Shown here one piece after another: positions 2-19,767 of a DNA stretch of 24,637 bases. The notes under the pieces are model-generated. The model was not told the DNA's origin. It worked only from the letters and a program-made list of their open reading frames with translations, and ran no database searches. The position numbers and the translations under genes were made by a program. How positions within the stretch are numbered: position 1 is the first letter of the stretch; every line of letters starts with the position of its first letter. Source of the stretch: a virus; the IMG/VR virus record IMGVR_UViG_3300029908_001149, positions 1 to 24,637 of that record. The stretch is one strand, 5' to 3'.

Positions 2-235
2 TGGTATCTCGACAATAAGCTTCACCGCGAAGACGGACCGGCTGTTGAGTGGAATGATGGAGAATTGTGGTGGTATTTGAACGGTGGCTTTCACCGCGAA
101 GATGGACCTGCTATAGTCAGACTGGATGGCAACAATGTTTGGTTTTTAAACAACCGAGAGCTTACCGAAGAAGAATTCTCTGGATATTTAAGAAATAAAC
201 AGTTCAACGACAGTATTAACGAGGCTTTAAAATGA
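2..235 (+). CDS. HREDGPA-repeat protein, 5'-truncated by window edge
   Basis: Open at the window start; 77 residues are visible in the frame beginning at base 2. It holds two copies of a roughly 23-residue repeat (W-Y-L-x-x-K-L-HREDGPA-x-E-W-x-DG), which resembles the MORN-like/YwqK-type repeats seen in phage and giant-virus proteins. It ends with the module TEEEF-x6-NKQFNDSINEALK that closes several other proteins here. The stop TGA overlaps the next ATG as ATGA, and the GAGG in the Glu-Ala codons (223-226 region) is the next gene's Shine-Dalgarno, so the two genes are translationally coupled. Function is unknown; such repeats usually form beta-hairpin stacks. The repeat family is certain, the role is not. 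Confidence 0.85.
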   Translation, partial: WYLDNKLHREDGPAVEWNDGELWWYLNGGFHREDGPAIVRLDGNNVWFLNNRELTEEEFSGYLRNKQFNDSINEALK

Positions 236-720
236 AAGACGGATTAACTATCGATGAATACGGTAATAAATTCTGGTACAAGAATAATGTTTCTCACCGT
301 GAAGATGGTCCAGCCGGAGAATGGGCTGACGGCGGCTCTAAACACTGGTGTTTAAATGGTAAATACCACCGCGAAGATGGTCCAGCTATCGAATGGGCTA
401 ACGGAACTAAAGAATGGTATTTAAACGACAAACTTCACCGCGAAGACGGTCCAGCTGTCGAACGGGGTGACAATGGTAACAAAGAATGGCGTCAATACGA
501 TAAATTACATCGCAAGGACGGTCCAGCCATTGAACGTTACGATGGTTCTAACTTCTGGTACTTAGAAGGCAAACTTCATCGCGAAGACGGTCCCGCTATA
601 GAGTATTCTAATGGTGAAAAAGTATGGTCCCTTCACGGTGAAGAAGTTACCGAAGAAGAATTCAATCAACTTCAACGTACTAAACAATTCAACGACAATA
701 TCAATGAGGCCTTGAAATGA
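232..720 (+). CDS. HREDGPA-repeat protein (five repeats, conserved C-terminal tail)
   Basis: A 162-residue protein made almost wholly of five tandem 23-24-residue repeats, each starting HR(E/K)DGPA, followed by an acidic or aromatic stretch and a W-Y-L type beta strand. The last 25 residues are the shared tail module (TEEEF ... QFNDNINEALK). There is no signal peptide or membrane segment, so it is probably a soluble cytoplasmic protein. The start ATG overlaps the upstream stop by 4 nt and is preceded by GAGG at 7 nt. Its own TGA overlaps the start of the IscA-like gene in the same way. Similarity to MORN_2/YwqK-type repeats is recognised by eye; the function is unknown. Confidence 0.9.
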   Translation: MKDGLTIDEYGNKFWYKNNVSHREDGPAGEWADGGSKHWCLNGKYHREDGPAIEWANGTKEWYLNDKLHREDGPAVERGDNGNKEWRQYDKLHRKDGPAIERYDGSNFWYLEGKLHREDGPAIEYSNGEKVWSLHGEEVTEEEFNQLQRTKQFNDNINEALK

Positions 721-4216: not shown

Positions 4217-5722
4217 CTATTTCTTAGGTTTCTTAGGCATACTTTTTGCTAGGATCTTTTCTGCTTTTAAGGATTTATTCATAGCAATAACTGAACCAAT
4301 AGAATCGATCTCGCCTAAAGTTAAGTTAGGCATTCTTTTGTGCATGAAATCTCGGAATTCTTCTTTCTTGCCCCAAACCTTGTATTCTTCCTTGGCACGT
4401 TTGGACCATTTTTTCTTACCACTATCCAAACTTTCCTTCACTAATGCGGCACCGCCAGCTAATTGAGAAGGAGCGACGTTTCCAGATCCGGCAGTCAAAG
4501 CTTTCTTGATCTCTTTCTGGCCAGCCTTAGGGGCTCCGGAAGCTCCTTGAGAAGGCATGTTAAACGATCTGTTGCCGCCAGTAGTACCGGCGTTTAAACC
4601 GCTTAGGTATTTATGAGCATGAGCGCTAGCACTTTTCGCATCTGCGTGTCCATGACCAGAAACTCCGCCGACTCCAGCATAGTTACCGGCATGTTTAACG
4701 TCAAACTTATTAGTTTCAGGATTTTTCATAACTGAAACAGTCCCCATCATTGGGTGCTCATAATGAGCTGCAGCATTGCCGCCTTTAGTTTGCACCAAAG
4801 TGCCTTGCCAGCCTTCTGGAGCTTTGATCTTTTGTCTTGTTTCAGTATTAAAAGGTATAGGAGTGCCGACCGGCTTAGGAGCTTTTGGTGCTGCTGGTTC
4901 AGCTTTCTTCATATTAGCAGCTTCGGTATGTTTTTTACCTTCAGCAGTGTGCATATCGGAGATATGAGAGGCCGGAGCTAAGTGGGCGACTCCATGTCCG
5001 CTAGCGTAATCGGCGTGCATTGCTGCAGCTTCATGATGTTCAGCTGGAGTGAAATCTTTGTGAGCAGGATGCTCAAAATTGATATGGATCGGTTTGCCAG
5101 TGGAAGTATGGTCGTAGGGACGTTTACTGAATTTGTCGGCTTTTTCCATGGTAGTTCCTGCGTTAAGTAATTGGATGGCAATCGAAGATTCGGATTTAAA
5201 GATATCTTGATCAAAAAGATCATTCATAGAATCTTTTACAGGTTTATTTTCTGGCATTAATTTAGCAATAGCTGCTTTATTACAAGGAGTTACAGTGATA
5301 GTGACTTTGCGAGCGATAGATTTTGTGATGTACATTCCATTCTTATCTATCTTAGCTCCCTCGATTGAAAAGCCAACGATATCATGTTCATGGGAATTAG
5401 CGGCAGAGTACATAAATAGACCGGCAATATCTTTTGCTGATTCATTATAATCGTCAAATAATTCGCCAGTAATATAAAGAAAGGGAACTTGACATTGGGA
5501 CCAGAAGAATTTCTCATTATCTGAGGAGCATTCGTCTTCGGTCATTATTTTCTTAGCAGTTAGGATTTTACCTACAGTTTGCCCAGGAAGATCGGATTTG
5601 TGTTCAAAGTTTAAAGTACCATCTTTATCCAAAGATGTAATATCCAATCCGGACATTAAGAGCACTTCTCCTGAACTATCGATGTTCTCACTGGCCGCAA
5701 TGCCTTGAATTTTAGTAGCCAT
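4217..5722 (-). CDS. prohead (capsid maturation) serine protease with long scaffold-like C-terminal region
   Basis: A 501-residue protein. The N-terminal ~165 residues look like a herpesvirus/phage prohead protease: a catalytic His in NFEHKSDLPGQTVGKI (H41), a catalytic Ser in VGFSIEGAK (S119), and the strand IARKVTITVTPCNKAA that follows it in this family. It would cleave scaffold and capsid N-termini in the prohead. The rest is low-complexity: a His-rich stretch (about 210-270), an Ala/Pro/Lys linker, a Gly-rich middle and a basic C-terminus ending KPKK. Around residues 405-430 it carries KALTAGSGNVAPSQLAGGAAL, closely matching the capsid protein N-terminus. A fused or embedded scaffold role is plausible. 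GAGG about 10 nt upstream supports the start. Confidence 0.8.
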   Translation of the reverse strand: MATKIQGIAASENIDSSGEVLLMSGLDITSLDKDGTLNFEHKSDLPGQTVGKILTAKKIMTEDECSSDNEKFFWSQCQVPFLYITGELFDDYNESAKDIAGLFMYSAANSHEHDIVGFSIEGAKIDKNGMYITKSIARKVTITVTPCNKAAIAKLMPENKPVKDSMNDLFDQDIFKSESSIAIQLLNAGTTMEKADKFSKRPYDHTSTGKPIHINFEHPAHKDFTPAEHHEAAAMHADYASGHGVAHLAPASHISDMHTAEGKKHTEAANMKKAEPAAPKAPKPVGTPIPFNTETRQKIKAPEGWQGTLVQTKGGNAAAHYEHPMMGTVSVMKNPETNKFDVKHAGNYAGVGGVSGHGHADAKSASAHAHKYLSGLNAGTTGGNRSFNMPSQGASGAPKAGQKEIKKALTAGSGNVAPSQLAGGAALVKESLDSGKKKWSKRAKEEYKVWGKKEEFRDFMHKRMPNLTLGEIDSIGSVIAMNKSLKAEKILAKSMPKKPKK

Positions 5723-6454: not shown

Positions 6455-7363
6455 ATGCATTACACTGAGACTGAACTAGCAAAGCTAATTCAAAGTGTGG
6501 AAGCGGAATTCACCGCCCACCTCGCTAAGGCTGAGGAACACTTTGAACCTGAGCATAAAGATGCTAAAGAAGAACCTAAGCATCATGAAGAGCACAAAAA
6601 AGCTCATCATGAAGAAAAGGAATCTGAAGAGCATAAAGAAAGCCCAGAGCATGACTATGATGATGAAGACATGGAACATATGCATAAAATGTATATGAGC
6701 ATGCATAAAGGTGAGATCCACGCTCACCATCACGCTTTAAAGAAAGCCATGGAACACCATGGACTTACTTGCCATGATCTCGAAGAAGAAAAAGAGCATC
6801 ACGGCAAAGAAGAAGCTGAAGAAGAACATCATCACGGCAAAGAAGAAGCTGAAGAAGAACATCATCACGGCAAAGAAGAAGAAGAAACTAAGGCGCACCA
6901 CGAGAAGAAAGAAGCTATCAAAGGTGCTTTAAAAGAACCAAAAGAGATGGAGAAGGTTGAAAAACCGACCGAACTCAAGCCTCATGATAAACATGAAATC
7001 TCCCACAAAGAGTTGCATGAAAAGTCTAAGGATATTGGTTCCGAGCCTGAAATTCAAAAGTCTGAAATCGCAGCCCTTAAAGCTGAAAGAGATGGACTTA
7101 AGAAGAACTTGGATGTAATAACTGAATGGTTAAAGGGACAAGCTTCCAAGGCAGCCCCTCAAAGTAAGGCCATTACTCGATTGGATTCTATCACCAAAAG
7201 TGAAGAAACTAAAGAAGTAGCTACCTTATCCAAAACAGAAATTACGACCATATTAACCAAAAAATCTTCAGAACCAAGTTTATCGAAGTCTGATAGAGAA
7301 TTAATCAACGCTTACTACCTTGACGGTGCAAGCTTAACAAGTATCAGTCACTTACTCAAGTAA
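6455..7363 (+). CDS. His/Glu/Lys-rich protein, probable capsid scaffold
   Basis: A 302-residue, extremely charged protein directly upstream of the capsid gene, the usual place for a scaffolding protein. Residues about 30-165 are His/Glu/Lys-rich with three tandem copies of an 11-residue unit (HHHGKEEAEEE). Residues about 195-230 look like a coiled coil (KSEIAALKAERDGLKKNLD), and the last 25 form a short helical domain (DRELINAYYLDGASL...HLLK) resembling the compact capsid-binding end of scaffolds. AAGGAG lies 8 nt before the ATG. The His density could bind metal ions or make the protein pH-sensitive; that is inference. It does not carry the AGSxNxAP motif shared by protease and capsid. Confidence 0.6.
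   Translation: MHYTETELAKLIQSVEAEFTAHLAKAEEHFEPEHKDAKEEPKHHEEHKKAHHEEKESEEHKESPEHDYDDEDMEHMHKMYMSMHKGEIHAHHHALKKAMEHHGLTCHDLEEEKEHHGKEEAEEEHHHGKEEAEEEHHHGKEEEETKAHHEKKEAIKGALKEPKEMEKVEKPTELKPHDKHEISHKELHEKSKDIGSEPEIQKSEIAALKAERDGLKKNLDVITEWLKGQASKAAPQSKAITRLDSITKSEETKEVATLSKTEITTILTKKSSEPSLSKSDRELINAYYLDGASLTSISHLLK
6794..6889 (+). repeat. 33-bp tandem repeat inside the scaffold gene (about 2.9 copies)
   Basis: Unit boundaries at 6794, 6827 and 6860; each 33-bp unit encodes (E/H)HHGKEEAEEE. The first two copies are almost identical in bases and the third diverges after GKEE. The length keeps the frame, so copy number can vary without breaking the protein. Confidence 0.85.
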
Positions 7364-7390: not shown

Positions 7391-8797
7391 ATGTATACTG
7401 AACAAATGCAATCACTGATGAAGGCTTTGGAAGCTGGTTCTTACAATGCAGCTCCAGGCCAATTAGTACAAGGCGCTGCCTTGATGATCGAAGATCTTTC
7501 CCCAATCATGCACAATGTGACTTTTGATGATTCACACATCAAGTTACAAAAGATGCTAACTAGCAAGGCTGTTAAGTCGCAATTACATCAATTCGACAGA
7601 CAACTTGATTATGGTATCTTCGGTGGATCCGCTCAATTTGAAGGCGGGATCGGCGAAGAGGATACAAGTAATTTCGTCCGTGCTGTAGTGCCTATGGCTT
7701 ACTACTCCACGACACGTCGCGTAACTGTTGCTTCCAACATGGTAGCTACACTTGATGGCGTAAAAGCGGAAGATCGTTCAGCTGCTGACGCTGCAATGAA
7801 ACTTTGCGGTGACGTAGAATTCGACTTGTTCCGTGGACAATCTGACTTCTCAAACGCAGGCGTATTCGATGGTAACCCACTTGCAATCGCTAAAATGCCT
7901 AACATGATCGGCTTAGATCTTCAAGTACGTCAATCAGACGGTGAATTAAACACCCAAGATTTGATGTTCTCTGAATACGGATCTAGCTTGACTGTAGTAC
8001 TTTCGGCTGACGGAACGCTTACGCAATCCATCATCGAAGATTCTTCAGTAAGAAGTGCAATGAACATGGGTGCCGCTGACAAATTGTTAGTAGATCCAAT
8101 CGTTCTATCAGCTTACAACAAGATCTCACACGCTAAAGAACGTATCATGCTTGCTGGTTCAGCTCAAGAAGCTACTGGCGCTCACTTACGTACTCAATGG
8201 ACTTCAGCAGCTGTAGTTTCCTTAGAGCCTTCTAGGTTCCTTTCTGGAAAAACACAACCAGCTCGTGCTCGCTCCGGATCCCCAGCGGCTCCAGGTGCAA
8301 TCACTCCATCCGATGCAGGTGCAGCAGGTTCAATGTTAGCAGCTGGCACTTACTGGTACTTCGTAACTGCTTTCAGCATACGCGGTGAATCTCTTCCAAG
8401 TGCAGCAGTTTCCGTAGCGGTAGCTGCAGCAGGTGACAAAGTAACTGTTGCTATCCCAGCAGTAGCTTTGGCAGCGGGCTTCAACGTTTATCGTTCAGAA
8501 GTCGGCGGATCAGCTTCAAGTGCTCAATTCATCGGAAAGATCGCTTCTCCTTATGGAACAGGCGTAACTTTCACTGACTTAGGTGCTCGCTCCCCAGGTT
8601 CCGTAACAGGATTCTTGGTTCAAGGGAACACAATGGGTATTGCTCAACTTGCTCCTTATAGCAAATTAAAGCTTGCAGTCGCAGATTTGTCGCTTCCCGA
8701 AGCGCACTTCAGATTTCTATCTTTAGCAGTTTTCCAACCTCGTAAGAACGTTCTTTTAGACAATCTTACAGGACAATTGACTGGCGGCGGATACTAA
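7391..8797 (+). CDS. probable major capsid protein with an inserted Ig-like domain
   Basis: A 468-residue protein in the order protease, scaffold, capsid, preceded by AGGAGATAA and followed by a strong terminator, as expected for a highly expressed head gene. The N-terminus holds KALEAGSYNAAPGQLVQGAAL (11-31), near-identical to a segment of the protease C-terminus. The central part (about 40-290), with a long FDDSHIKLQKML-type helix and strands, fits an HK97-fold capsid. Residues about 296-405 (AAPGAITPSD ... TYWYFVTAFS ... GFNVYRSEVGG ... FTDLGARSPGS) read as an Ig/FN3-like domain inserted before the last strands (AHFRFLSLAVFQPRKNVLLDNLTG). The head role rests on context and composition; the family was not confirmed by search. 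Confidence 0.75.
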   Translation: MYTEQMQSLMKALEAGSYNAAPGQLVQGAALMIEDLSPIMHNVTFDDSHIKLQKMLTSKAVKSQLHQFDRQLDYGIFGGSAQFEGGIGEEDTSNFVRAVVPMAYYSTTRRVTVASNMVATLDGVKAEDRSAADAAMKLCGDVEFDLFRGQSDFSNAGVFDGNPLAIAKMPNMIGLDLQVRQSDGELNTQDLMFSEYGSSLTVVLSADGTLTQSIIEDSSVRSAMNMGAADKLLVDPIVLSAYNKISHAKERIMLAGSAQEATGAHLRTQWTSAAVVSLEPSRFLSGKTQPARARSGSPAAPGAITPSDAGAAGSMLAAGTYWYFVTAFSIRGESLPSAAVSVAVAAAGDKVTVAIPAVALAAGFNVYRSEVGGSASSAQFIGKIASPYGTGVTFTDLGARSPGSVTGFLVQGNTMGIAQLAPYSKLKLAVADLSLPEAHFRFLSLAVFQPRKNVLLDNLTGQLTGGGY

Positions 8798-8868: not shown

Positions 8869-10407
8869 CTATATTTTCTTTATCCATTTAGAATTTCCCG
8901 TACCATAAATTTTCCAGTACCCTTCTTCTTTCATAGCTGCGTCACCTTTTTTCCATGAGATCTGCCTAGGAAATCTTGACTCTTTATTACACCAGTGCAT
9001 ATCGGGTTCTGTGAATTCTACAAATTGGAACTTATTTCTCTCATAAACTTCACCGTGACTATAACGTCTATCTGCATATGTCATAATCGTATCTATTCCG
9101 TTAGCTTTTAGACTTTTCTCAGCTGAGGCCAGTAACCTATCGAAGCCAGAGCCTACGCTCCAATTTAGTTTGGAACAGAATCTAGCTATCTCTACTGTTT
9201 TTTCGTCTTCATTGACTCTAGGAGTTCTAAAAGTAAGTAGAGATACCAATTCGTCCTTATACCATAGACCTAGGCGTAACGTGCCTCGACATTGACCTTG
9301 CAAGTGATTTGCGTTTAAAAAAGCACTGGCCGTTTTATAATCAACTTCTTTCAAAGTACATTCTCTAGCATATATCTTATGTTGAAATATTCCTAATTTA
9401 GCTTTTATTACAGATTCTACTATATCAGTTTGTTCATTAATTTCATCTTCAAAAAACTGCAGTAACTTAATATCATGTTTGTCGGCTAATTCTGCCTTAA
9501 GCCTATGACTTGATCTGTCAACGCCTATAGAAATGTCCGATTCTGCCTCTTGATGCCAATATAGGCCGTGTAATTCGATTCCGAATTTGCGTTCTTCATC
9601 GTATAAATCTATTTCTAGAGCATTGTTCCCATTTTTAGTATCGTCCCTATATAAAACACGACGGTTCCGCTCTATATTAGGTAGAAGATCTTTTATAAAG
9701 TCATAAACTTTAATTTCCATTGAACTTTTAGGAGTACAAAACGGACAGTTACCGCGTTTAATAAAATTATTGCTGCGCTGTAAAAATATATGTTCTTTTG
9801 GACACATATATTGATACACTCCATCATCGTTGAAAGTTAACACAGTAAAATCTGGAAATCTCAGTTTAGCCAATCGAACATGTCTATCATGAAGAGAAAT
9901 CGCTTGTTCAGTTAAAGCATTGCTTACTCTAGTTTTACGCTCCTCATCAGTCAAGCTATCCCATATATTCTTGCCAAACTCAGATGTCCCAAAACCGCTA
10001 ACTTCGTTGTTTTTTAATGCAGTTTCTCTTCTAATTTCAATTGCTTCAGGATTTTCAGCTATATAATCAGTCACAGATTCTGAAATCTTATCTCTAGTAG
10101 CTTGAACAGACATGTTTTTAGTAGCTGTAACAGACCATTGATCACCTCTCTCGGCTATAGCTTTAGAAATAGCCTTACCCCTATTAGCGAGTACTATAGG
10201 GTCTTTGCTTTTAATTCTATTGGAGCAAATATTACAGATTAGTTTATCTTGATATTGTCCACGTCTTCGAATTTTAATTGGACTTAAGCAATTCTGAGTC
10301 GTGCATTGCCACAGCATTTGTGCTGGTTGTAATCTCGTACCTTCATAAGTACGTTCTCTATCTTTTGTAACTACTACTAAATCTTCTCTATCATTGGACC
10401 GGTTCAT
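8869..10407 (-). CDS. Vsr-like (EDxHD-type) homing endonuclease with zinc ribbons and GNAT-like C-terminal domain
   Basis: A 512-residue protein. Order of parts: an N-terminal Cys cluster (C35, C40, C58, C61); a linker; a second zinc ribbon (C202, H206, C221, C224); then a nuclease core with E231, EID (265-267), IELHGLYWH (277-285), H301 and the FFEDEI block (318-323). This arrangement is typical of the Vsr-like EDxHD homing endonucleases of phages. The final ~165 residues (YARECTLKEVDY...) look like the acetyltransferase-fold domain often attached to these proteins; no acetylation role is implied. It is free-standing, antisense to the capsid gene, with its own promoter, and would promote its own spread by cutting uninserted phage DNA. 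The ribosome binding site is poor (TTAGG about 10 nt upstream). Confidence 0.8.
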   Translation of the reverse strand: MNRSNDREDLVVVTKDRERTYEGTRLQPAQMLWQCTTQNCLSPIKIRRRGQYQDKLICNICSNRIKSKDPIVLANRGKAISKAIAERGDQWSVTATKNMSVQATRDKISESVTDYIAENPEAIEIRRETALKNNEVSGFGTSEFGKNIWDSLTDEERKTRVSNALTEQAISLHDRHVRLAKLRFPDFTVLTFNDDGVYQYMCPKEHIFLQRSNNFIKRGNCPFCTPKSSMEIKVYDFIKDLLPNIERNRRVLYRDDTKNGNNALEIDLYDEERKFGIELHGLYWHQEAESDISIGVDRSSHRLKAELADKHDIKLLQFFEDEINEQTDIVESVIKAKLGIFQHKIYARECTLKEVDYKTASAFLNANHLQGQCRGTLRLGLWYKDELVSLLTFRTPRVNEDEKTVEIARFCSKLNWSVGSGFDRLLASAEKSLKANGIDTIMTYADRRYSHGEVYERNKFQFVEFTEPDMHWCNKESRFPRQISWKKGDAAMKEEGYWKIYGTGNSKWIKKI

Positions 10408-11270: not shown

Positions 11271-11477
11271 CTAGTATCTTTTGTGCCACTGAGGTCTTTG
11301 ATGCAAGTATTTTGCAGCTTCAAGATCAGAGGCGGTTTGTTTTAACGTAGTAAGAACTTCATTTAACGATTCTTCATCTAGATCTAAGCTATTGATTTTC
11401 TTTATCATTGTATCAATATCTTTTTCCATATCTGATATTTGTAGTTGAAGTGTCTTTAAGAATTTATCTAATGCCAT
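11271..11477 (-). CDS. small coiled-coil protein
   Basis: A 68-residue, almost fully helical, heptad-like protein (FLKTLQLQISDMEKDIDTM...) with a basic, aromatic C-terminal end (HQRPQWHKRY). No known family. The ATG shares one base with the stop of the SbmA-like gene (TAATG), and GGAG is 9 nt upstream inside that gene, so it is translationally coupled to it. A partner or regulator of the transporter is a reasonable guess from coupling only. Confidence 0.7.
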   Translation of the reverse strand: MALDKFLKTLQLQISDMEKDIDTMIKKINSLDLDEESLNEVLTTLKQTASDLEAAKYLHQRPQWHKRY

Positions 11478-12367
11478 TATTTTGTCTCCATTTCGACTAT
11501 GCGATTAATCACTGATTCCAGTTTTGAAATATCATCCTGCTTCTCGATAATGAGTTCTGAACATTCAATAATGACTTTCATGGCATCTGCAGTCGCAAAA
11601 AGAACACCCAAAGAAAGAGTCCCAAAGAAATATTGCCTAGCCAGAAGCAAATGCGGGAATACTACTGCCGCTTGTAAATAGCCCGACTGAAAGAAACCTA
11701 ATTTCTTGGCTCGAATCATTAAAGCGGACCAGTTCTGTTTAACATCATCTAAGACTGGTGCTTTAGTGAAACTTTTATCCCAAGTAAGTATCTTTTGTCT
11801 TAGAGTTGATTCTCTGCTTTCTTGTTCATAGGAAAGTTGAACTAACGGTTGAGCGATCCATTTTGCAATTCGGCTGCCAACAATTACCCATATGGCTATT
11901 GGTAATAAAAACCAAGGACTAGCTGTGGAGACTAATAGGTATATGAAAATAGGTAAGGTAATAAAAGCGTTGATACAAGCTGTAGCCAAAGTCAAGGTCA
12001 TCGTTGTAAGTTCTTCTAAATCCATGGTCAATCGTTGCTCGTTAGTTCCCGTCTCATTTAAGACTCCAGAAGTAAGCTTTAAATACAAAGCCTCACGCCA
12101 AATGAACGATAGGCCTCTTTTAAAGTACGAATTATAACCTTTGCTCAAAACCCAAGCTGCTGCCATGGCGGAAAAGAAGGCTATGGCCTCTAAAAAGTGT
12201 TGGAAGTTGTGTTGTTGGAAAGAATCCATGAACATACGTCTAAATTGATTTAGACCGACCGTGAGAGCTACCATCGATAACTCAGTTAACAGAATTGCCA
12301 TCAGAAGCTTATAGCTGCCTTTGGCATTATAACACATCTTTAATAGCTTGAATAAATTCTTAAGCAT
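11477..12367 (-). CDS. SbmA/BacA-like ABC-transporter transmembrane protein lacking an ATPase
   Basis: A 296-residue polytopic membrane protein. Six likely membrane segments lie at about 20-40, 57-78, 124-147, 151-171, 224-247 and 252-275. Family marks of SbmA/BacA and ABC_membrane_2 proteins are visible: IWRE (89-92) after helix 2; NEQRLTMDLEE (109-119, like NPDQRIxEDI); the cytosolic stretch PLVQLSYEQESRESTLR (174-190); and AVVFPHLLLARQYFFGTLSLG (given as AVVFPHLLLARQ and YFFGTLSLG, 234-254). It ends with ISKLESVINRIVEM, where the transmembrane domain of relatives ends, and no nucleotide-binding domain follows in any frame. SbmA/BacA import peptides and some antibiotics using the proton gradient. 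An ATPase-less half transporter or dominant-negative partner of a host ABC protein is the alternative. Confidence 0.75.
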   Translation of the reverse strand: MLKNLFKLLKMCYNAKGSYKLLMAILLTELSMVALTVGLNQFRRMFMDSFQQHNFQHFLEAIAFFSAMAAAWVLSKGYNSYFKRGLSFIWREALYLKLTSGVLNETGTNEQRLTMDLEELTTMTLTLATACINAFITLPIFIYLLVSTASPWFLLPIAIWVIVGSRIAKWIAQPLVQLSYEQESRESTLRQKILTWDKSFTKAPVLDDVKQNWSALMIRAKKLGFFQSGYLQAAVVFPHLLLARQYFFGTLSLGVLFATADAMKVIIECSELIIEKQDDISKLESVINRIVEMETK

Positions 12368-13085: not shown

Positions 13086-13331
13086 CTATTCATCAGTGGA
13101 TTCGATGACCGTGTCGTCTTCGACGTTATCTAACGAGTTTTCTATGTTTCTATTAAAAATGATGGTTCGCATTTTAGTTTTATGTTCATTTTCAGTATAT
13201 TCAACGCCATAGAGGTACCATTTACGATTCCCTTTAACATATTCTATAGCAGGGCCTTCTTCACGATGAAGTTTGCCATTTAAGTACCAGAATACATTGC
13301 CGTTAGAATTGTAAACCGGACCATTTCTCAC
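13086..13331 (-). CDS. HREDGPA-type repeat protein (GTG start, divergent tail)
   Basis: An 81-residue protein with one HREEGPAIEY repeat between two W-Y-L-(N/Y)-G strands, then a diverged tail (TENEH...FNRNIENSLDN) extended by an acidic end. The GTG start overlaps the preceding TGA (GTGA), with GAGG upstream supplied by the previous gene's Glu-Ala codons. It is the last gene of the phosphoesterase operon. The decayed tail agrees with no gene following closely on this strand. Confidence 0.8.
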   Translation of the reverse strand: MRNGPVYNSNGNVFWYLNGKLHREEGPAIEYVKGNRKWYLYGVEYTENEHKTKMRTIIFNRNIENSLDNVEDDTVIESTDE

Positions 13332-13531
13332 TTAAGAGCCTCATTGATATTGTCGTTGAATTGTCTATTGCGTTGAAGTTGTCTGATTTCTAGTTCGGTT
13401 AATGCTATACCATTTAAGTACCAGCGTTTATCACCGTCATTCCATTCGATAGCTGGACCATCTTCACGATGAAGTTTGCCGTTTAAGTACCAGCGTTTAG
13501 AGCCCGATTCGGTATGTAGACCGTTTTTCAT
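13328..13531 (-). CDS. HREDGPA-repeat protein (single repeat)
   Basis: A 67-residue protein: MKNGL start, W-Y-L-N-G-K-L, one HREDGPAIEW repeat, W-Y-L-N-G, then the full tail (TELEIRQLQR, NRQFNDNINEALK). The start overlaps the upstream stop by 4 nt with GGAG as Shine-Dalgarno, and its own tail supplies GAGG to the GTG of the next gene. It is closely related in sequence to the tail proteins at 16575-16790 and 232-720, implying duplication within this genome. Confidence 0.85.
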   Translation of the reverse strand: MKNGLHTESGSKRWYLNGKLHREDGPAIEWNDGDKRWYLNGIALTELEIRQLQRNRQFNDNINEALK

Positions 13532-13824
13532 TTTAAAGCTCCATCGATCCTTTTGTTAAACAATTCACGATCAGTTTCTTCGTACTTGTCACCGGGCTCT
13601 ATATTGACGTAGATTCGTTCTTTGGAATATCTAGAAGTACTTGGTCCAAGTAGATCATTGATAGTTCTTAACATATCAGCCATTGCCGATAAGCCATCGT
13701 CTTCCTCGTTGTTTTGATATACATAATCAGTATGATCGGGCGGATCATTATCGAACGTTACAGTATGTGATAGAATAAATCCGTTATCTGCTACTTTAAT
13801 AGTAATCACAATATTATTCCTCAT
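13528..13824 (-). CDS. hypothetical protein (98 aa) with a tail-like C-terminus
   Basis: A soluble protein beginning MRNNIVITIKVADNGFIL, with an acidic centre and a conserved-looking GDKYEE motif. No family could be named. It has no HREDGPA repeat, yet it ends RELFNKRIDGALK, which resembles the shared tail (QFNDNINEALK). The codons for DGALK give GGAG ahead of the next ATG. The start overlaps the phosphoesterase stop (ATGA). Confidence 0.7.
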   Translation of the reverse strand: MRNNIVITIKVADNGFILSHTVTFDNDPPDHTDYVYQNNEEDDGLSAMADMLRTINDLLGPSTSRYSKERIYVNIEPGDKYEETDRELFNKRIDGALK

Positions 13825-14462
13825 ATGTCAAAAACCAAGGGTTTATTAGTTACTTCATATCTCTCGTTCAATTGAGAGGCATTTGCAAAAGTAATGTTAT
13901 TGATTAAATTTTGTCCAAAAGATCCGTGGATATGGCCAAAGAAGTGGTGTGTTAAATTAGGTAACTGTTTAACTCTCTTAAGTAGCTCTTCACAGCCAAG
14001 GAATTCGCTATTAGCTTCTGGATAGGCTTGATCTAAGATACCATAAGGAGGCCCATGGGTTACAAGGACCCGGGTATCTTCAGGTATCTGGGCCCATTTC
14101 TTTGCGATCTCAGGACCTCTGAGCACGTTATAACTCCAGTCGTGGAATTCAGGCTGGAAGGGCGATAGCCAGAATTTGATGCCTTCAATTTCAATTTGCT
14201 CATGAATCAATAGCTTAGCGGCACTTAATACTGCTTTGGCCATTCCTGGATCTTCTTCTATACAGATGTCATGATTTCCTGGTGAGATAAGAATTCCGTG
14301 TTTAAACTTAGGAGCTTGCTTCATAAGCCATTGATTAAACTGGATTAACTCTCTGACAGAGCCACGGGAACAGAAATCGCCACAGTGGATTAGTAGGTCC
14401 CCTTCTGGTAATTCAATCTGATCATGCAAAGTATGAGTATCGCTTATTATTACTAACTTCAA
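13821..14462 (-). CDS. calcineurin-like metallophosphoesterase, MPPED family-like
   Basis: A 213-residue enzyme with all metal-binding motifs of the family: SDTH (D8, H10), GDF (D29), GNHD (N63, H64), VTHGPP (H136) and GHIHG (H177, H179). The W-L-S-P-F-Q-P-x-F-H-D-W region (about 98-109) and GPPYGILD match class III phosphodiesterases such as MPPED1/2. These hydrolyse phosphodiesters, including 2',3'- or 3',5'-cyclic nucleotides in some members; the substrate here is unknown. The start is TTG, 9 nt after GGAG; no ATG fits better. First gene of a four-gene operon of overlapping stops and starts. Confidence 0.88.
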   Translation of the reverse strand: MKLVIISDTHTLHDQIELPEGDLLIHCGDFCSRGSVRELIQFNQWLMKQAPKFKHGILISPGNHDICIEEDPGMAKAVLSAAKLLIHEQIEIEGIKFWLSPFQPEFHDWSYNVLRGPEIAKKWAQIPEDTRVLVTHGPPYGILDQAYPEANSEFLGCEELLKRVKQLPNLTHHFFGHIHGSFGQNLINNITFANASQLNERYEVTNKPLVFDI

Positions 14463-14510: not shown

Positions 14511-14572
14511 TCCCAATCTTATGGATAGCGAACACGCGATAATTTACTTTGATCTTTCAAGGAGATCCTATC

Positions 14573-16501
14573 ATGGCCATTTCTAAATTCGATAATGATT
14601 ATTTTATCAATGCTTTAACTAGCCAAGCAGCCGGGTTGGAGTTGATTAGCGCTCTTGAAAATGGATCGGTTTTATCAACATTCACTTTAGATAGACTAAT
14701 CATAGCTTTAGGTAGTCAACAAGCTGCTTTAAATCTACAAGCCGCTATGATCAACAAGGGAATTCTTTCAGCAGAAGATATTCAATATATGAGCCAAGGC
14801 TTTGCTAATGCTCAAGTAGCTCAAGACGCCGTAGCAGCAATCGCATCTTCAAACGCAGTATCTAACGCTATAACTGCTCCATCTTTAGTAGGAATGCCAA
14901 TAACTTACGGATTAGAAGTGGCAAATTCCGGAGTTACACAAGCTCAAATAGTAAGTTTAAGCGCTCCAGCAGGAAGTTCTTTCCCTACAACTGGAACAGC
15001 CGGATACGTTGAACTGTACAACGGCGGAGACGCTAATAAGTATTATGTATGGTATAGCGTTCTAGGTGGCAGCGTAGTTGATCCAGCTCCAGCCGGGTTC
15101 ACTGGTATCGAAGTCATTATAAACGCCAGTGATACTGCTGCAGCTGTCGCTACAAAGACTCTGACAGCGATTGCTGCTGGAACCGTAGCTTTATCTACAT
15201 CCGTTTCCGGATCAGTAGTCAGCATTACTGCAACTGTAGTTTTAGTCGCTACTCCTACTTTCTCTTTACCAGCTGGAACTTATTCTGGGACACAATTTGT
15301 AACCCTTTCTTGCTCTACAGCCGGTGCGTCAATGTTCTATACATTGGATGGATCCTCTCCTACGATTTCAAGTACACCTTACGTAACAGCGATCTCGGTT
15401 GGCGCTAGCGAAACTATTAAGGTATTAGCTACCAAATCAGGTCTAGCTAATTCCGCAATCGCAAGTGCAGCTTACGTGATTACTGGATCAGCAGGTGTCG
15501 CTACTCACTTAGTGTTTTCAACACAACCTTCAGCAGGTGTAGCTGGAGTCGCTTTTCCTACTCAACCTATCGTAACCATTAAAGATGCTTCAGGCGCAAC
15601 AGTAACGACTGGTGCAGATGCTACTGCTTCTATTACTCTATCACTTCTTTCAGGAACCGGAGTTCTATCCGGTACAGTAACCATGGCTGCTGTTGCGGGT
15701 GTAGCTGACTTCGTAGGTAAAGGGGTTAAGATAAACTTATACGGTAATAAAACTTTATTAGCAACTAAAGCTGACACTACCGGCGGCGGCGGGACAGTCT
15801 CGTTCACAATCGCTAGCGATACTTTTAATATCGCTAACAGTTTAGCAACCGTTGACCTAGGAACATCTGCTAACTATAAGATCTTAGCTGAGTCTGGCAT
15901 TTCCACAACAGCTGGATCTTTTATCACTGGCGCTATTGCAGTAAGCCCTATAGCTTCAACGGCAATAACCGGTTTCGGTCTAATATTAGATGGAAGTGGA
16001 ACCTTCTCTACCTCTTCATTAGTAAGCGGACATGTATTCGCAGCAGATTACGCTTCTCCTACTCCAGCGACTTTGACTACAGCAATAAGTGACATGGGAA
16101 CAGCCTATACGGACGCGGCTGGCCGACCAACTCCTGATTTTACAAATCTAGGTTCTGGTAATCTTGGCGGATTAACATTAACTCCTGGTCTATACAAATG
16201 GACAAGTGGCGTAACGATTCCAACTAACGTGACAATTTCCGGTGGACCAAACGATATTTTCATATTCCAAATCGCCGGTACATTAGTAATGTCAGCTTCC
16301 ACCAGTATCATTCTAAGTGGTGGAGTAGTTGCTTCCAATATCTTCTGGCAAGTTGCCGGAGCTGTAACCATTGGAGCAAATGCTGTATTTAGTGGTATTG
16401 TATTAGCGCAAACAAGCGTCGCTTTAGTAACCAGTGCTTCTTTAAGCGGACGTATCTTAGCTCAAACAGCTGCTACCTTACAAAGTAACGCTATAACCTA
16501 A
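14573..16501 (+). CDS. modular virion-type protein with C-terminal DUF3494 ice-binding domain
   Basis: A 642-residue protein; the start is ATG 14573 because AAGGAG lies 8 nt upstream (an upstream in-frame TTG is discarded). Parts: a helical N-terminus (1-125); a beta region typical of phage fibre/tail proteins (about 130-225, GYVELYNGGDANKYYVWY); a chitobiase-C-terminal/FN3-like domain (about 228-305, VTLSCSTAGASMFYTLDGSSP); an Ig-like domain (about 309-420); and a DUF3494 ice-binding domain (about 424-642). The last is recognised by DLGTSANYKILAESGIS, ITGAIAVSPIASTAITGF, ADYASPTP, AYTDAAGR, LTPGLYKW, NDIFIFQIAGTL, NIFWQVAG and GRILAQTAATL. DUF3494 folds into a beta-solenoid that binds ice in polar bacteria, algae and fungi. 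There is no signal peptide, so placement on the virion is likelier than secretion. A terminator follows. Confidence 0.85.
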   Translation: MAISKFDNDYFINALTSQAAGLELISALENGSVLSTFTLDRLIIALGSQQAALNLQAAMINKGILSAEDIQYMSQGFANAQVAQDAVAAIASSNAVSNAITAPSLVGMPITYGLEVANSGVTQAQIVSLSAPAGSSFPTTGTAGYVELYNGGDANKYYVWYSVLGGSVVDPAPAGFTGIEVIINASDTAAAVATKTLTAIAAGTVALSTSVSGSVVSITATVVLVATPTFSLPAGTYSGTQFVTLSCSTAGASMFYTLDGSSPTISSTPYVTAISVGASETIKVLATKSGLANSAIASAAYVITGSAGVATHLVFSTQPSAGVAGVAFPTQPIVTIKDASGATVTTGADATASITLSLLSGTGVLSGTVTMAAVAGVADFVGKGVKINLYGNKTLLATKADTTGGGGTVSFTIASDTFNIANSLATVDLGTSANYKILAESGISTTAGSFITGAIAVSPIASTAITGFGLILDGSGTFSTSSLVSGHVFAADYASPTPATLTTAISDMGTAYTDAAGRPTPDFTNLGSGNLGGLTLTPGLYKWTSGVTIPTNVTISGGPNDIFIFQIAGTLVMSASTSIILSGGVVASNIFWQVAGAVTIGANAVFSGIVLAQTSVALVTSASLSGRILAQTAATLQSNAIT

Positions 16502-16521: not shown

Positions 16522-16581
16522 GGCGGACGCTCCGCCACTCTCCATTGGGGGCTGACTTAAAACGTCGGCCCTAATTATTTT
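16522..16581 (+). terminator. double hairpin terminator after the ice-binding gene
   Basis: GGCGGA-CGC-TCCGCC (16522-16536) is followed by a longer hairpin, GGGCTGAC (16549-16556) and GTCGGCCC (16564-16571) with one G-T pair and a 7-nt loop, then TAATTATTTT. It lies between convergent genes and partly reaches into the end of the minus-strand gene. Confidence 0.65.
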
Positions 16582-16790
16582 AAAGCCTCATTGATATTGT
16601 CGTTGAACTGTCTATTACGTTGATATTGTTTGAATTCTAGTTCGGTTAATTCTTTGTTATTTAAATACCATACTTTATATTCTGCAATACGCACTTCTTG
16701 GGACCCCATGAAGACTCCCGAATAGTAGTGCACTGTCTTGATATGCTCGCCATTGAGAGGTTTATTATCTTTGTCTATATTATTTCTCAT
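16575..16790 (-). CDS. 71-aa tail-module protein (repeat family without HREDGPA)
   Basis: It keeps the W-Y-L-N-N strand and the full tail (TELEFKQYQR, NRQFNDNINEALK) of the repeat family, but the N-terminal half has no HREDGPA motif. ATG overlaps the thymidylate kinase stop, with GAGG from the kinase's last codons as Shine-Dalgarno. Here the tail ends in TAA instead of TGA and no start codon overlaps, in line with there being no following gene on this strand. The peptide tail is nevertheless intact, so it is kept for more than coupling. Function unknown. Confidence 0.8.
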   Translation of the reverse strand: MRNNIDKDNKPLNGEHIKTVHYYSGVFMGSQEVRIAEYKVWYLNNKELTELEFKQYQRNRQFNDNINEALK

Positions 16791-18332: not shown

Positions 18333-18357
18333 TACGTCAAGTTCTTTGGAGGTTACC

Positions 18358-18876
18358 TTGAGACTTTCGGCACAAGTAATACAAATTTTTAACACTGTTA
18401 ACTCCTATGTTATTGGTAATCAATGGTCGGTTCAAGCCGGGAATCCGAATACCCTTTATTTTCAACTAGTTGATTTAGACCAGCAAGTTGCGGGCTCTTT
18501 GATTCAAAATCCAGGTGCTCAGATTTTTGGGTTATTCAACACTTCTTCTTTAGCTCCTATAAGCCCCCCTTTGCGTTATGTCCTTGGAGCTACTTCTGGC
18601 TTAACACCCTATTCGGTATCAGTAACTTTTCCTAGTATTGACGATGCTAAAGTAGTAACTATTGCTTGTACTCAAGCTAGTCCGTCAGATGCTTCGATTT
18701 GGCAATTTAACATTCCAAATACTATTACACCTATGTCTGGCGATGTTCAATTTAGCGTAACACAAGGCTCAATGACTTGGACTTTCTCGGTTTTACAAAT
18801 GATCGCAGTATCTTATACGAATGACGGTTCAGACGGTACTTTGCCAAATAACTTTACGTACTACTTTTTTGACTAA
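18358..18876 (+). CDS. putative virion structural protein (172 aa), TTG start
   Basis: A beta-rich, low-charge protein (MRLSAQVIQIFNTV...) without recognised domain; composition (Thr, Ser, Gln, aromatic residues, few Lys) is typical of phage structural proteins. The start is the TTG at 18358, 5 nt after a full GGAGG; the longer reading from 18346 would place the Shine-Dalgarno inside the gene. It begins the plus-strand run leading into the connector-like protein, 60 bp downstream. A tail or neck component is inferred from location. Confidence 0.6.
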   Translation: MRLSAQVIQIFNTVNSYVIGNQWSVQAGNPNTLYFQLVDLDQQVAGSLIQNPGAQIFGLFNTSSLAPISPPLRYVLGATSGLTPYSVSVTFPSIDDAKVVTIACTQASPSDASIWQFNIPNTITPMSGDVQFSVTQGSMTWTFSVLQMIAVSYTNDGSDGTLPNNFTYYFFD

Positions 18877-18936: not shown

Positions 18937-19767
18937 ATGAATTTTAAGAACCAAAAGACCAATGGAACCTCAGCTTATCCGGTACATGCTGAACAGACTA
19001 GCGGATTACTCCGCCGTGTAGAGCCATTCTTAACTCCTGAACAGCTCGTGAGTCGATTCCTTAAAGGGATCAACCTGATGTTTTCCAGTGGAGCGACTTT
19101 TACCAATGCTGAGCTTAAGGATCGTATCTATTTGGCCATGAACGAAGCTGAGATTCAAATCGGCACCTTTCTTACCAGAGAAGCATTTAAGGACAAACTT
19201 CCCTTCGACAGTTCTTTGTACCGTTCTTATATTCATTTACGTGTTGAACATGGTCCTATCATATCGGTGGAAGAAGTAGCAATCGTAAGTGCTAACAATG
19301 AAGATATATTTAGACTTCCACCACAATGGATTGAGGCGGCCAACTTCAGTAAGAACTTAATTAACATTATTCCGCTTTTAGCCGGTTATGGTTTTAATAC
19401 AATAGCCGCTTCAGCTCCTACCGCTGGTGTTGCGTTCTTATCTATTTTGAACCAAGGACTTGGATTTGTTCCTGCGTACTGGCAAGTTAAATACACTGCA
19501 GGTGTTTCAAATAGAGAAGGCGAAGTTCCAACTATAATTAATGAATTAGTAGGATGCATTGCAGCAATTGCGATCTTGAGCGAGATCGCTCCTTGGTTTG
19601 TTAATATCAGTCAGTCGCAAAGTCAAGACGGTATAAGTCAGTCGTCATCGTCACCGGGCCCTAGAATATATGAACTTCGTATAGCTGAACTTACTAAAAA
19701 ACGCGATGAATATATTAAGAAAATAAAAGGTATATTCAGTACCAAATTTAAGATTGGAGATTTTTAA
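18937..19767 (+). CDS. putative head-tail connector/adaptor protein
   Basis: A 276-residue protein. After a disordered start, LTPEQLVSRFLKGINLMF and ELKDRIYLAMNEAEIQIGTFLTRE (in parts ELKDRIYLAMNEAE, IQIGTFLTRE) form helices like those opening phage head-tail adaptors of the gp6/gp15 type, followed by HLRVEHGPIISVEEVAIVS, which resembles their conserved strand region. A hydrophobic stretch at about 135-165 (NLINIIPLLAGYG) and a Ser/Gln-rich linker (about 226-240) precede a basic C-terminal helix. It would sit at the neck or join head and tail. The assignment rests on pattern and position, not a confirmed match. Confidence 0.5.
   Translation: MNFKNQKTNGTSAYPVHAEQTSGLLRRVEPFLTPEQLVSRFLKGINLMFSSGATFTNAELKDRIYLAMNEAEIQIGTFLTREAFKDKLPFDSSLYRSYIHLRVEHGPIISVEEVAIVSANNEDIFRLPPQWIEAANFSKNLINIIPLLAGYGFNTIAASAPTAGVAFLSILNQGLGFVPAYWQVKYTAGVSNREGEVPTIINELVGCIAAIAILSEIAPWFVNISQSQSQDGISQSSSSPGPRIYELRIAELTKKRDEYIKKIKGIFSTKFKIGDF

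Follow-up and report, generated by a model that had tools for sequence, protein, structure and literature searches.

A putative phage surface fibre tipped with a DUF3494 ice-binding domain, and other DUF3494-like modules in phage particle proteins

Introduction

The known members of the DUF3494 family (type-1 ice-binding proteins, PF11999), such as FfIBP, TisAFP and the Cryosericum odellii IBP, are secreted or cell-anchored cellular proteins. The locus analysed here raises the question of what a phage does with such a domain. In a 24.6-kb IMG/VR virus record (hereafter the window, i.e. the whole stretch of DNA that was analysed), the same complete domain, with the same fold and flat face, forms the tip of a phage structural protein that lacks a signal peptide.

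The presence of DUF3494 in a virus is not in itself new, because viral PF11999 genes and giant-virus DUF3494 proteins have been described. PF11999 genes in vOTUs of the Central Arctic surface microlayer were interpreted as auxiliary genes for host cryoprotection (PMC11515562), and one antifreeze protein listed for Southern Ocean viruses (PMC8407431) is read in the same way; in contrast with our fibre, the accessible sections of these two reports describe no virion architecture, anchor or head-module context for the genes. We found no PF11999 match in Synechococcus phage S-SKS1, named as a homologue carrier in PMC11515562. In BFVD, every DUF3494 protein among the best matches came from Hyperionvirus, a giant virus of eukaryotes whose proteins have the fold but only 18-27% identity. 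A virion-displayed DUF3494 domain would be new. The initial annotation knew of no phage ice-binding virion protein, and we found none in the literature on ice binding and phages or virions.

Results

The fibre gene belongs to a phage head module

The window has the following features around the gene of interest.

4217..5722, minus strand: homologue of the head maturation protease
6455..7363, plus strand: homologue of the Mx1 gene that immediately precedes the gene for the major capsid protein (MCP), scaffold-like by position
7391..8797, plus strand: MCP (phrog_752, 3.2e-36; 54% identical to the Mx1 MCP)
13821..14462, minus strand: metallophosphoesterase, a recurrent neighbour of the fibre in relatives
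14559..14564, plus strand: ribosome-binding site AAGGAG, read from the sequence, eight bases before the ATG at 14573
14573..16501, plus strand: fibre gene, 642 aa (helical anchor, phage virion domain, CHB_HEX_C, Ig-like, DUF3494 tip)
16548..16572, plus strand: terminator-like hairpin 3' of the fibre gene
18346..18876, plus strand: neck-region gene, the first conserved one after the fibre slot, with an Mx1 homologue
18937..19767, plus strand: second conserved neck-region gene (phrog_772, labelled tail fiber), probably neck or adaptor by position

The closest named relative is Myxococcus phage Mx1, a 170-kb phage that we place among contractile-tailed phages because of its sheath gene. The MCP, head maturation protease and neck-region genes of the window are homologous to those of Mx1 and occur in the same order. 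An additional block separates the MCP from the neck genes in the window; it contains homing-type endonucleases, small repeat proteins and the fibre gene. In Mx1, the corresponding slot is without a fibre, and PF11999 is absent from the whole genome. Over 21.8 kb, the window shares 99.97% identity with a 56-kb contig that comes from another sample, and related phage contigs of up to 176 kb retain the fibre gene in place. The window is phage DNA, as first proposed.

The ORF at 14573-16501 (plus strand) is a real gene. It could also start at an in-frame TTG at 14549, the ATG at 14573 being the likelier choice. Three more viral contigs carry an identical tip domain, and the whole gene is identical where the contig is long enough; hence, the gene is not an assembly artefact.

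The window also encodes an SbmA/BacA-like ABC membrane domain (11477-12367, 4.3e-15), a homing-endonuclease-like protein with a C-terminal Mom-family-like match (8869-10407, 4.3e-7) that has related copies in sister phages, and an aminotransferase-like protein (1035-2018) that is distantly homologous to a protein of the 171-kb relative (24% identity, 3e-15). The protein encoded at 717-1034 ends in CGCGKSAC and, judged by its sequence, resembles an A-type iron-sulphur carrier (IscA/ErpA). Short paralogous proteins with W/Y-LNGKLHREDGPA repeats are scattered along the window (2-720, 2166-2393, 13086-13531 and 16575-16790). The metagenome identifiers did not turn up in the literature searched; several of them may denote Stordalen Mire peat or Nunavut permafrost samples, which played no part in our conclusions.

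Domain layout of the fibre

The gene divides into five parts.

14573..14857, plus strand: anchor, residues 1-95, six helices in helical-hairpin repeats of ~30 aa, the constant part of the slot in relatives
14891..15247, plus strand: phage domain, residues ~107-225, with the motif YVWY..GG..DPAP.GFTGI.V, also present in a large baseplate-type protein
15269..15463, plus strand: CHB_HEX_C_1 domain, residues 233-297, with 1-3 copies in relatives
15485..15838, plus strand: Ig-like stalk, residues ~305-422, without profile match and with a low-confidence model
15845..16498, plus strand: DUF3494/PF11999 ice-binding domain, residues 425-642, with an intact B face

What had been described as one fibre-type region consists of two parts: the N-terminal anchor, and the domain at 107-225 that is shared with a 2188-aa baseplate-type phage protein. 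The predicted structure of the anchor shows six helices in hairpin repeats; a fold search with it returned generic helical matches (Z at most 4.2) and no clear match to a solved fold. The chitobiase-C-like domain was retrieved by Pfam as CHB_HEX_C_1 (PF13290, E=9.9e-18). The Ig-like identity of residues ~305-422 is plausible; this segment has no Pfam match and an AlphaFold pLDDT of ~30. We saw neither a signal peptide nor a hydrophobic segment when inspecting the N-terminal sequence, in line with the initial annotation. The whole protein matched no PHROGs family at E<=0.1 (about 87% of these families have no assigned function), and we found no match of the fibre itself to Hoc or its capsid-binding domain.

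The tip has the fold and the flat face of ice-binding proteins

The profile search proposed in the initial annotation identified a complete domain at the C-terminus: residues 437-642 matched the Pfam Ice_binding profile PF11999 over positions 1-208 of 208 (E=7.6e-69, 232 bits, for a curated cut-off of 28.7 bits). The AlphaFold2 model of the tip, with pLDDT of about 90-98 across most of the domain, is a triangular beta-solenoid with a long parallel helix. Foldseek aligned it with solved ice-binding proteins at TMt 0.92-0.97, rmsd 0.5-1.1 A and 54-58% identity: the chimeric FfIBP 4nu3 (TMt 0.97, 0.7 A, 55% identity), the IBPs of Cryosericum odellii (56-58% identity) and TisAFP7/8 (0.5-0.6 A, 54-56% identity). 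With the fold taken from this model, it is near certain that the tip has the domain identity and fold of proven ice-binding (antifreeze) proteins.

We then mapped the B face by sequence from AnpIBP (PMC7277481). Its outward residues in the tip are SGST, TATQ, TSAV, GATG, GTVS and SGTP, i.e. 20 out of 24 are A, G, S or T (7 Thr) and none is charged or aromatic. By this sequence mapping, the flat ice-binding face is intact. Proven binders have 16 (FfIBP), 17 (CoIBP) and 20 (TisAFP7) small residues on this face, and none of the 80 nearest cellular relatives combines at least 20 small residues with the absence of charges. Mutating T20 or A214 cuts the activity of TisAFP7 (PMC7966756), as does mutating S153 or T156 in AnpIBP. 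The equivalent residues of the tip (S17, T211, G172 and T175, respectively) are all small.

The face is also more conserved in phages than in cells. In the eight long-form phage fibres described below, the excess of conservation relative to cells is 0.22 on the face, versus 0.02 elsewhere (permutation p=0.0002). This test compares the face with other non-hydrophobic columns, accounts for phylogeny only through those columns, and was devised after the sequences had been seen. Short-form fibres have ~3 charged residues on the face. Membership of DUF3494 does not by itself prove ice binding, because the family is widespread in groundwater, sediment and halophile genomes, and its folds are also present in organisms that never encounter ice. 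From the sequence and the predicted structure, we lean slightly towards ice binding by the window's tip.

A constant anchor with a variable tip

We located PF11999 proteins in many viral contigs by distant scans, and relatives of the phage by a scan with its MCP. Fibres with both the anchor and the ice-binding domain occur in at least 11 different uncultured phages once near-identical contigs are merged (the window, L112, L113/L114, L115, L116, L118/L119, L120, L126, L128, L132 and L133). Beyond the window, homologues are thus present in ten related uncultured phages; tblastn of the tip against 50,697 phage records gave no match. In nine of the ten, the fibre adjoins the MCP or its upstream head genes and precedes homologues of the neck genes at 18346 and 18937; in the tenth (L120), the fibre gene is present and the MCP lies outside the DNA fetched. 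Long-form fibres have 1-3 CHB_HEX modules, some with an Ig-like module, while in three short-form fibres (322 aa) the anchor is fused directly to the ice-binding domain.

We searched all ORFs of 16 phage loci with a profile built from the first 88 residues, and it matched the fibres at 2.4e-33 or better. Its only other matches were the same-slot genes of relatives that lack the ice-binding tip: L136 (1.6e-7), L140 (1e-6), L135 (1.4e-4) and L129 (1.3e-3). Those of L129, L135 and L136 encode small proteins of 97-116 aa, and that of L140 the anchor followed by an Ig/Fn3 domain, with a weak match to Hoc-like head-decoration PHROGs (0.003-0.004). The variable tip of this slot is an ice-binding domain or an Ig/Fn3 domain, or is missing altogether. 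When we scanned with the small anchor protein of L136, it matched only itself, and the aligned anchors vary too much to define a pattern for scanning.

On the MCP tree, the ice-binding tip takes three changes, which fits one gain and two losses or replacements. The tip is dispensable, since two close relatives lack it. The domain tree places the fibre domains together in a single group, which is separated from every cellular sequence with 100/98 support. We also observed further anchor-bearing fibres at L165:3383-4954 and L174:3320-4984, with a divergent DUF3494-like domain in or after the middle domain; in L165 this insert is permuted and lies within the middle domain.

DUF3494 folds in other particle proteins

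The 171-kb contig of L133 encodes three further PF11999 domains, one each in the tail sheath, a baseplate-J-like protein and a 2287-aa tail/baseplate-type protein. The sheath copy is circularly permuted: the segment that matches profile 70-215 comes before the one that begins at profile position 3. The phages of L132 and L128 have this insertion in their sheaths as well, and in three relatives, which have the empty site, sheath residue 179 is next to residue 393. A scan with the sheath insert retrieved 15 loci, comprising sheaths (including those of the more distant L169 and L171), baseplate-type proteins and further anchor-bearing fibres. Permuted DUF3494-like sheath inserts were observed in L146 (G018:C1:73889-76663), L155, L156, L164, L169 and L171. 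A divergent baseplate-type copy had no tblastn match in the 50,697 phage records. These insertions in sheath, baseplate-type and fibre proteins indicate that the DUF3494 fold is a mobile virion module in these phages. They show that the fold is used on particles, and the permuted copies suggest that it can serve as a general surface module.

Other phage lineages (L005, L006-L010, L123 and L124) encode free-standing DUF3494 copies of 216-223 aa without signal peptide. One lies between genes for a portal (phrog_146, 4e-122) and a head-morphogenesis protein (phrog_324, 3e-55), and a second one immediately precedes the gene for the terminase large subunit. In the domain tree, these copies cluster with a Desulfosporosinus sequence from peat soil and lie outside the fibre group, and at least two acquisitions are therefore likely.

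Discussion

The virion-protein architecture first proposed for the gene is supported by our analysis, and is refined to a position in the head module (MCP, fibre, neck). We infer, with good support, that the fibre very probably acts on the virion surface, and it is probably attached to the capsid. Because the gene sits in the head module, capsid decoration is likelier than a tail fibre. The explanation that we prefer, at about even confidence, is a fibre on the virion surface, most likely decorating the capsid in the manner of Hoc, whose exposed DUF3494 tip holds virions on ice. The constant helical anchor would dock on the particle, the CHB_HEX and Ig-like modules would form a stalk, and the C-terminal beta-solenoid would expose its intact flat face. 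If there are many copies per particle, the tips could keep virions attached to ice or to the boundary between ice and water, which may enrich them at sites in freezing soil or brine where cells gather. The benefit could alternatively be that ice is kept from growing over the particle.

This arrangement recalls T4 Hoc and other Ig-like fibres that decorate capsids and mediate adherence to mucus (PMC11150434). They too are encoded in the head module, have an anchor with exposed adhesive domains, and are dispensable, and the sister phage with an Ig/Fn3 tip in the fibre slot adds to the likeness. In contrast to Hoc, the fibre has an unrelated anchor and an ice-binding fold instead of Ig domains at its tip, and its attachment to the capsid is presumed from gene position.

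A serious contender, though one that we think falls short of probable, retains the virion-surface fibre and makes its tip a non-ice adhesin or a passive spacer, which would bind host polysaccharide, soil polymer or the cell surface, or protect the particle, like Ig-like domains on other phages. This would account for the insertion of DUF3494-like folds, often circularly permuted, in sheath, baseplate and fibre proteins, as expected of a generic module, for homologues in lineages with no obvious tie to ice, and for a slot that alternates with an Ig/Fn3 domain or nothing. It fits less well with a tip of the classical ice-binding type, so close to proven binders, whose face is both cleaner and better conserved than that of cellular relatives, as a spacer does not need such a face. 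The haloarchaeal relative has a degraded face (14 small and 5 charged residues).

The fibre might instead belong to the tail or baseplate, as a receptor-binding or side fibre with the same adhesive tip, which we regard as unlikely. The domain at 107-225 recurs in a baseplate-type protein, the nearby gene at 18937 is labelled tail fiber by PHROGs, and the sheath and baseplate proteins of relatives carry DUF3494-like domains. Yet the gene follows the MCP in the head module, about 14 kb before the sheath gene in the 171-kb relative, the alternative occupant of the slot is weakly Hoc-like, and in other phages, the free-standing copies have terminase, portal and head genes as neighbours.

An auxiliary gene whose product guards the infected host from freezing, as proposed for the Central Arctic genes, is very improbable: such a role is disfavoured by the missing signal peptide, by an anchor confined to this phage gene slot, by stalk domains typical of phage structural proteins and by the head-module synteny. 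A host or chimeric contig with a false phage context is ruled out by the synteny with Mx1 and by the independent contigs.

Taken to its full extent, our preferred reading describes a phage lineage with functional ice-binding domains on its capsids, DUF3494-like modules on the sheath and baseplate of relatives, and particles that adhere to ice, the ice-binding fold being an interchangeable surface module that includes natural circular permutants in sheaths. We advance this fuller picture tentatively, at a little under even confidence. If the tip binds ice, it would be, to judge from the literature that we searched, the first ice adhesin on a virion and a cold counterpart of Hoc-mediated mucus adherence; phages could then select their place within freezing soils and ice. 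A single recombinant domain makes it possible to test how phages are retained and survive in ice. Even without ice binding, a DUF3494 solenoid that serves as a swappable, circularly permuted virion module would be a new role for a large family.
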